Shown here in pieces: positions 3,661 to 3,714 of a DNA stretch of 21,147 bases; position 1 is the stretch's first letter, and each line of letters starts with the position of its first letter. The DNA comes from Saccoglossus kowalevskii (Eukaryota; Hemichordata; Enteropneusta; Harrimaniidae). Where the stretch lies: contig NW_003107520.1 in NCBI RefSeq assembly GCF_000003605.2, positions 1-21,147 of the forward strand, written 5' to 3'. Under the pieces are notes generated by a model. That model had not been told where the DNA came from, searched no databases, and saw only the letters and a program-made list of their open reading frames with translations. The position numbers and the translations under genes are program-made.

Positions 3661-3714
3661 GCATCTACTTGGTGATTCATCACTGCCATCAAGACAGTCA
3701 GGTAACCCATCACA
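3661..3714 (-). pseudogene. LDLa C-terminal half, fullest copy in the monomer
   Basis: Read on the minus strand from 3714 down to 3661, the 18 codons give [18 protein letters not shown] with no stop. LDL-receptor class A modules have six cysteines; their C-terminal half follows the pattern C-D-G-x-x-D-C-x-D-G-S-D-E-x(n)-C. All fixed positions are present here: cysteines 4, 5 and 6, and the acidic residues that bind calcium (Asp of CDG, Asp before the second Cys, Asp and Glu of SDE). The N-terminal half (cysteines 1-3) is absent, so this cannot fold as a full module. The next copy is shifted by 62 bp and so by two bases in frame. Many other copies carry a stop (GGG TAA where the plus strand reads GGTTACCC). 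I read this as a relic of an LDLa exon amplified as satellite, not an expressed gene. The motif match is direct; the ancestry is inference. Confidence 0.7.
3672..3683. repeat. Short dyad GTGAT-TC-ATCAC in the monomer
   Basis: A perfect 5-bp inverted repeat with a 2-bp spacer, present in every monomer that keeps GTGATTCATCAC. It overlaps the DGSDES codons on the minus strand. The 63-bp variant (GTGATTTACCACC) and the GATTCATTAC variant disrupt it. It could bind a dimeric protein or be chance; the sequence alone does not decide. Confidence 0.5.

Follow-up and report, generated by a model that had tools for sequence, protein, structure and literature searches.

The 62-bp array and its monomer

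The stretch of DNA analysed here, hereafter the window, comprises all 21,147 bp of contig C199 of Saccoglossus kowalevskii and is resolved by TRF, from end to end, into a single tandem array of a 62-bp unit. Wrap-around alignment yields 345 monomers, including those cut by the ends of the window: 296 of 62 bp, 33 of 63 bp, 7 of 30 nt and 9 of other lengths. The consensus and all monomer counts rest on the 331 monomers that are free of gaps, with 14 gapped ones excluded; these 331 represent 109 distinct sequences, and neighbouring monomers show a mean identity of 0.869. With 345 similar units over 21 kb, the window is satellite DNA in the sense of a long, non-coding tandem array.

The array carries a weak higher-order pattern: monomers 84, 56 or 28 units apart are among the most similar (mean identity 0.874-0.878 vs 0.869 for neighbours). 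The shortened, 30-nt monomer lies at seven places in the window, e.g., near 2638 and 7830, and the same junction recurs once at positions 1-503 of another contig (C3846:1-503). A search of Rfam with positions 3000-5000 of the window gave no match at the gathering threshold. Searches for the monomer in phages, plasmids and viral contigs (with two patterns) and in prokaryote genome contigs (with one pattern) found none, in keeping with its animal origin. The features discussed below are as follows.

1..21147, minus strand: 62-bp tandem array (TRF, wrap-around alignment and counts; probable placement in an intron)
3661..3714, minus strand: exon end derived from an LDL-receptor class A (LDLa) module in one monomer, with Cys4-Cys6 and acidic positions (translation, Pfam PF00057, VLDLR match, shuffles)
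3654..3660, minus strand: A/GTAAGT, the first base of a split codon, then a relic phase-1 5' splice donor (sequence, monomer counts, donor of the source exons)
17082..17135, minus strand: diverged copy of the 18-codon LDLa peptide (translation, Pfam)
2172..2674, minus strand: block of monomers including a 30-nt shortened unit, common to C3846:1-503, locus L003 (alignment, private unit variants)

An LDLa exon end in the consensus unit

On the minus strand, the consensus starts TGTGATGGGTTACC; its 54 bases translate into an 18-residue LDLa-like peptide and are followed by A and GTAAGTA, so composed that the unit holds 54 coding bases, one split-codon base and seven intron bases opening with a donor. 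The sequence-only reading had placed such peptides at 3661..3714 and 17082..17135, and translation returns both at exactly these coordinates. The consensus of the 331 monomers encodes the same peptide as the 3661..3714 copy, which is accordingly not one picked copy.

The same reading had taken the peptide for half of an LDLa module with three cysteines and the acidic positions, which act as calcium ligands. Pfam agrees: PF00057 is the best family for the two window peptides (21.8 and 21.7 bits; E 2.2e-4 and 2.4e-4), which both align to profile positions 22-37 of 37, that is, to the part with Cys4-Cys6. The scores fall under the curated cut-off of 24.1 bits because only half of the module is present. 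Each peptide has, in addition, one weak, unrelated Pfam match (CHCH, E 0.021; zf-C2H2_3, E 0.088), and the closest solved structure by sequence in the PDB is the VLDL receptor (E 1.5e-6). At 21.8 bits over positions 22-37, the window monomer falls short of a full module above 24.1 bits; it derives from an LDLa exon and is itself no LDLa domain.

A Pfam score that by itself lies below the curated cut-off would also be expected if the peptide were a chance frame in an unrelated satellite. The null against which this was measured consisted of dinucleotide-preserving shuffles of the circular (tandem) monomer, read on both strands and in every frame. A loose half-LDLa pattern, modelled on a PROSITE-style signature, occurs in 14 of 1,000,000 shuffled monomers and a strict one in 0; in ungapped BLOSUM62 comparison with one VLDLR repeat, the monomer scores 84 at best, and none of 246,757 shuffles exceeds 46. 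In the array, the LDLa frame is free of stops in 211/331 monomers, the loose pattern is found in 175 and the strict one in 90. The earlier propositions that the motif is very unlikely by chance and recurs in diverged copies are both upheld. A chance frame is, moreover, refuted by the 62/62 identity of the unit with two LDLa exons that adjoin the repeats (below), and we assign it a negligible probability. A protein motif within a satellite can therefore serve as a reliable trace of the satellite's origin.

The source exons and their loci

The genome searched spans 572,110,611 bases in 4,830 contigs. An LDLa family search produced 1,658 candidates, of which 150 were scored; all 150 exceed the cut-off, and two of them overlap satellite matches. 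Two loci on contig C3846, L069 (68300-71300) and L070 (34900-36300), each contain a complete, six-cysteine LDLa exon that is preceded by an AG acceptor (identified by eye) and ends TGC A/GTAAGTATG. The last 62 bases of both exon ends, donor included, are identical to the satellite consensus (62/62), and a third source exon, on contig C2354, which likewise has an AG acceptor ahead of it (by eye), matches the monomer at 56/62 positions. The exons of L069, L070 and C2354 all have six cysteines and score 46.7, 45.0 and 40.2 bits, respectively (cut-off 24.1).

The monomer consists of the final 54 bases of an LDLa exon, then A, then the first seven bases of the intron (...TGC A/GTAAGTA). The exon near-identical over about 55 bp that the sequence-only reading sought as evidence of descent from a protein-coding LDLa exon has thus been found, twice with full identity. 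In addition, the unit proves to be only partly exonic, one split-codon base and seven intron bases following the 54 coding bases.

At all three loci, the repeats start directly at the LDLa exon and lie within the intron ahead of the next LDLa exon; indeed, wherever flanking sequence is available, the array sits in an intron of the LDLa gene itself. A query with the first half of the exon and the upstream intron finds 3 places in the genome. The downstream exon finds 4, with repeats upstream of it at 4/4; the fourth is L003 (C3846:1-503), where the downstream exon, at C3846:540, scores 42.4 bits as LDLa and has four cysteines. The arrays differ widely in extent (all spans except that of L003 include the exon's own unit). 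The span matching the monomer is 2.29 units at L070, where the extra copy, about 1.3 units beyond the exon, has decayed to 40/62 identity without gaps. At L069, 6.13 units are followed, after an insert of other repeats, by 6.58 more. C2354 carries 26.21 units with both flanking exons present, and L003 carries 7.53 units or more, the contig beginning inside the array.

The insert at L069 consists of two copies of a SINE-like repeat of about 300 bases with tRNA-like boxes A and B (by eye), with units on either side. Some 400 N bases, which may be an assembly gap, lie beside the LDLa exon of locus L071 (C2354:12400-13400). Elsewhere, C4670:35786-41390 contains an open frame of 1,735 aa with many LDLa modules, often spaced by about 117-120 bases, a coding LDLa tandem without introns between modules, as opposed to genes with one exon per module; one scored match, C1003:223422, sits in another long frame, of 1,864 aa. 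On the mitochondrial contig (C4830, L077), cox1 is encoded on one strand and cox2 and nad1, both assigned by eye, on the other, and the cox1 frame has no AGA or AGG codons; opposite strands for cox1 and cox2 are unlike the arrangement in amphioxus.

A general tendency of LDLa exons toward such arrays was considered and found no support: among the 51 modules compared (L009-L038), 5 have a partial copy of the exon end downstream, and none of the reported matches at these 5 extends past the coding part. These copies are probably neighbouring LDLa modules.

Splice donor and intron phase

GTAAGT occupies the donor position in 218/331 window monomers, and GT in 247/331. Among shuffled monomers, GTAAGT occurs anywhere in 34,658 of 1,000,000; in the array, it lies one base past the last cysteine codon, judging from the sequence the very point at which an LDLa exon should end. 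The usual location of this point was sampled in 53 distinct LDLa modules that were found by pattern at loci L009-L038, with 12 bases read after the Cys6 codon. The first GTRAG falls 1 nt on in 21 modules, 4 nt in 4, 7 nt in 5 and 2 nt in 1, with none in 22. Provided that these are real donors, 30 of the 31 positions are phase 1, and the donor position of the monomer would then be the usual one for the LDLa modules of this genome. A literature search for confirmation of the human LDLR intron phases found none; PMC8001218, in the portion available, treats class 1-1 modules in general and does not contain 'LDL'.

Absence of a present coding role

The 18-codon frame is free of stops in 211/331 monomers, as might be expected of a coding tandem repeat, that is, a protein of hundreds of half-LDLa units under present selection. 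However, the 62-bp period is not a multiple of 3, and the frame shifts with each unit; the 21-kb window contains only two ORFs of at least 60 aa; and the LDLa frame of 120/331 monomers holds a stop. Variation among monomers shows no excess at third positions either (p 0.41 for all 331; p 0.50 for the 109 distinct sequences). Of the distinct changes that are possible, 46/121 nonsynonymous, 16/32 synonymous and 4/9 stop changes are seen, the synonymous share (0.50) being slightly above the nonsynonymous one (0.38). Read-through from the source exons stops 24 (L069), 24 (C2354) and 62 (L070) codons past Cys6. On the strength of the frame structure, the stops and the flat variation across codon positions, we reject a present coding function of the array, to which we concede hardly any probability. 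To judge by these frames, the repeats do not encode protein now and are probably passengers, most of them with a decoy donor and none with a frame readable through the array.

Where the window belongs

The 253-kb contig C3846 opens within the array and continues into the next LDLa exon; bases 1-503 of this contig (L003) are 95.05% identical to positions 2172-2674 of the window over 505 aligned columns. Eight stretches of array were compared, three of which come from a second contig, C1074, and cover 1.8 of its 23.3 kb. The junction of the 30-nt unit occurs 7 times in the window and once in L003, and two further variants are likewise common to both (7 and 1; 5 and 1); all three are absent from the other 6 of the 8 stretches. 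C1074 (23,327 bp) is array at both ends and in the middle; the 1.8 kb of it that was sampled has other variants in common with the window and none of the three L003-specific ones.

The 25-base core of the monomer, with up to 2 mismatches, has 660 matches in the genome. The window accounts for 281 of them, the stretches with flanks for 31 and C1074 for an estimated 293, extrapolated from 23 in 1,829 bases; about 55 are left unplaced. These counts apply to the assembly, in which the array may be collapsed. Most copies are thus on two unanchored contigs, by direct count for C199 and by extrapolation for C1074. Furthermore, the window holds four frequent variants (37, 14, 28 and 50 copies) that none of the gene-flanked stretches compared (L003, L069, L070 and C2354) contains, and three of these four occur in C1074. 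Both observations would fit an independent satellite elsewhere, e.g., in heterochromatin, that was seeded by the exon and has gone from the gene. Against this, C3846 starts within the array, and its first 503 bases are 95% the same as the window, private units included. The downstream exon is present at four loci and the upstream exon at three; at the fourth locus, the contig ends within the array. We regard an independent satellite as unlikely, although it deserves consideration.

Because C3846 starts in the array and has rearranged units that recur in the window, the window is probably the interior of the L003 intron. C199 has no flanks, and its place in the intron is deduced from the shared units rather than seen. 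We infer that C199, and probably C1074, come from inside the array at which contig C3846 breaks off. As no L003-specific variant occurs in the sampled 1.8 kb of C1074, more than one locus may contribute to the large arrays. Our main reading, to which we assign a probability of roughly 0.9, takes the window for the inner part of a tandem array that lies in an intron and originated at an exon-intron boundary.

Proposed origin and growth of the array

The first duplication could have occurred by slippage or template switching between two look-alikes 62 bp apart, namely the Val-Cys codons of the exon (CCAAGTATGT in one source exon) and the donor (GTAAGTATGT), with AAGTA common just before the unit. 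At L069, the exon contains CCAAGTATGTGATGGG, and the donor region, 62 bases further along, contains GTAAGTATGTGATG; the bases before the unit start are AAGTA in L069, AAGT in L070 and AAG in C2354. From the present sequences, we suggest that the AAGTA microhomology may have set the limits of the unit.

Tandem repeats grow by unequal exchange. Growth by this route and by conversion could have brought the array to hundreds of copies at one or more of the four paralogous loci, while splicing at the exon-proximal donor would keep the gene working. Since the same intron holds repeats at each of the four loci, the repeats may well be older than the duplication of the loci. The array probably puts hundreds of decoy splice donors into one intron.

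To our knowledge, few satellites have been traced to their seed. In the present case, a single genome contains the seed with its exact limits, a microhomology that possibly set them, and a graded series of about 2, 13, 26 and hundreds of units, through which the growth of a boundary duplication into an array of satellite size can be retraced.

Possible exchange between the array and the exon

The exons of L069 and L070 differ at 12/60 positions in their first half and at 0/62 in the repeated part (Fisher p 1.1e-4), and the next exons differ at 14/99, again vs 0/62 in the exon end and donor (Fisher p 9.8e-4). Neither pair with C2354 shows a significant contrast (first half vs end, p 0.13 each; next exon vs end, p 0.54 and 0.80). 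The contrast was tested after the identity had been seen, and the signal comes from one of three exon pairs. The pattern hints at conversion, either by array sequence or between the two exons; exchange with the array may, even now, be introducing array sequence into the coding exon.

Purifying selection could account for the identity of the source exons over the repeated part, with no conversion by the array. The residues in the C-terminal half of LDLa are strongly conserved, and C2354 differs at just 6/62 positions and forms pairs without a significant contrast. Yet L069 and L070 agree at all 18 third codon positions of the repeated part and at the eight bases that follow, whereas 6/20 third positions differ in the first half. 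We consider selection alone a serious contender, at somewhat under even odds. More tentatively, we propose that the exon and its satellite may evolve in concert, such that the exon end is both master copy and target, and the 3' half of the LDLa module is overwritten time and again by array sequence. The resemblance of their Val-Cys codons (GTATGT) to a splice donor may make LDLa exons prone to such a process. If so, paralogous receptor genes would share an identical calcium-binding half while the rest diverges. In any event, the possible rewriting of a coding exon by a satellite can be put to the test here.

Comparison with known systems

Compared with the LDLa domain (PF00057), the monomer encodes Cys4-Cys6 and the acidic positions, as does the family; unlike the domain, it spans only profile positions 22-37 of 37, the whole module being encoded by the source exon.

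Known satellite seeds include rDNA spacers and transposable elements, according to the part of a review available to us (PMC5615363). Like satellites of these kinds, the array described here is long, and its unit can be traced to another genomic sequence. Unlike the seeds named there, its seed is a coding exon end with a splice donor, which is still present beside short arrays. A literature search for satellite DNA together with LDL-receptor class A found no report, and a published exon-derived satellite may exist. That such an origin is seldom traced, as the sequence-only reading had put it, is fair within the literature searched; for the event as such, however, there is a direct precedent in amphioxus.

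In amphioxus, tandem repeats known as mirages extend over exon-intron boundaries in Adh3, the globin genes BflGb6 and BflGb9, TnC and PGBD5 (PMC3087553, PMC3902484; both consulted in part, as for all statements on mirages here). Copy numbers are small, with 6 and 3 units in two haplotypes of BflGb6 and 3 units of 108 bp in PGBD5, and mRNA splicing is said to remain normal in these genes; amphioxus are the sole animals named for mirages in the portions available. The resemblance to the array of S. kowalevskii is close. In both, boundary-spanning units, often with splice signals, lie beside an authentic exon in variable copy number, and the lengths of the units overlap (10-72 bp in Adh3, 60 and 108 bp in PGBD5, 62 bp here). 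Repeats across the boundary adjoin an intact-looking exon at three of our loci, with only about 1.3 units beyond the exon at L070; splice signals are present within the units (GTAAGT in 218/331, GT in 247/331); and the number of units varies from 2.29 to 26.21 across paralogous loci.

Unlike the few units of mirages, the present repeats number 26 where an exon is seen on either side and 345 on a single unanchored contig, and they belong to an LDLa gene. What is new relative to mirages is the length, the exact seed with a graded series, the LDLa gene and, probably, the occurrence in an animal group other than amphioxus; exon-boundary repeats are thereby extended from a few units to tens of kilobases. 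The 62-bp array is a satellite-sized version of a mirage-type event, with its source exon identified.
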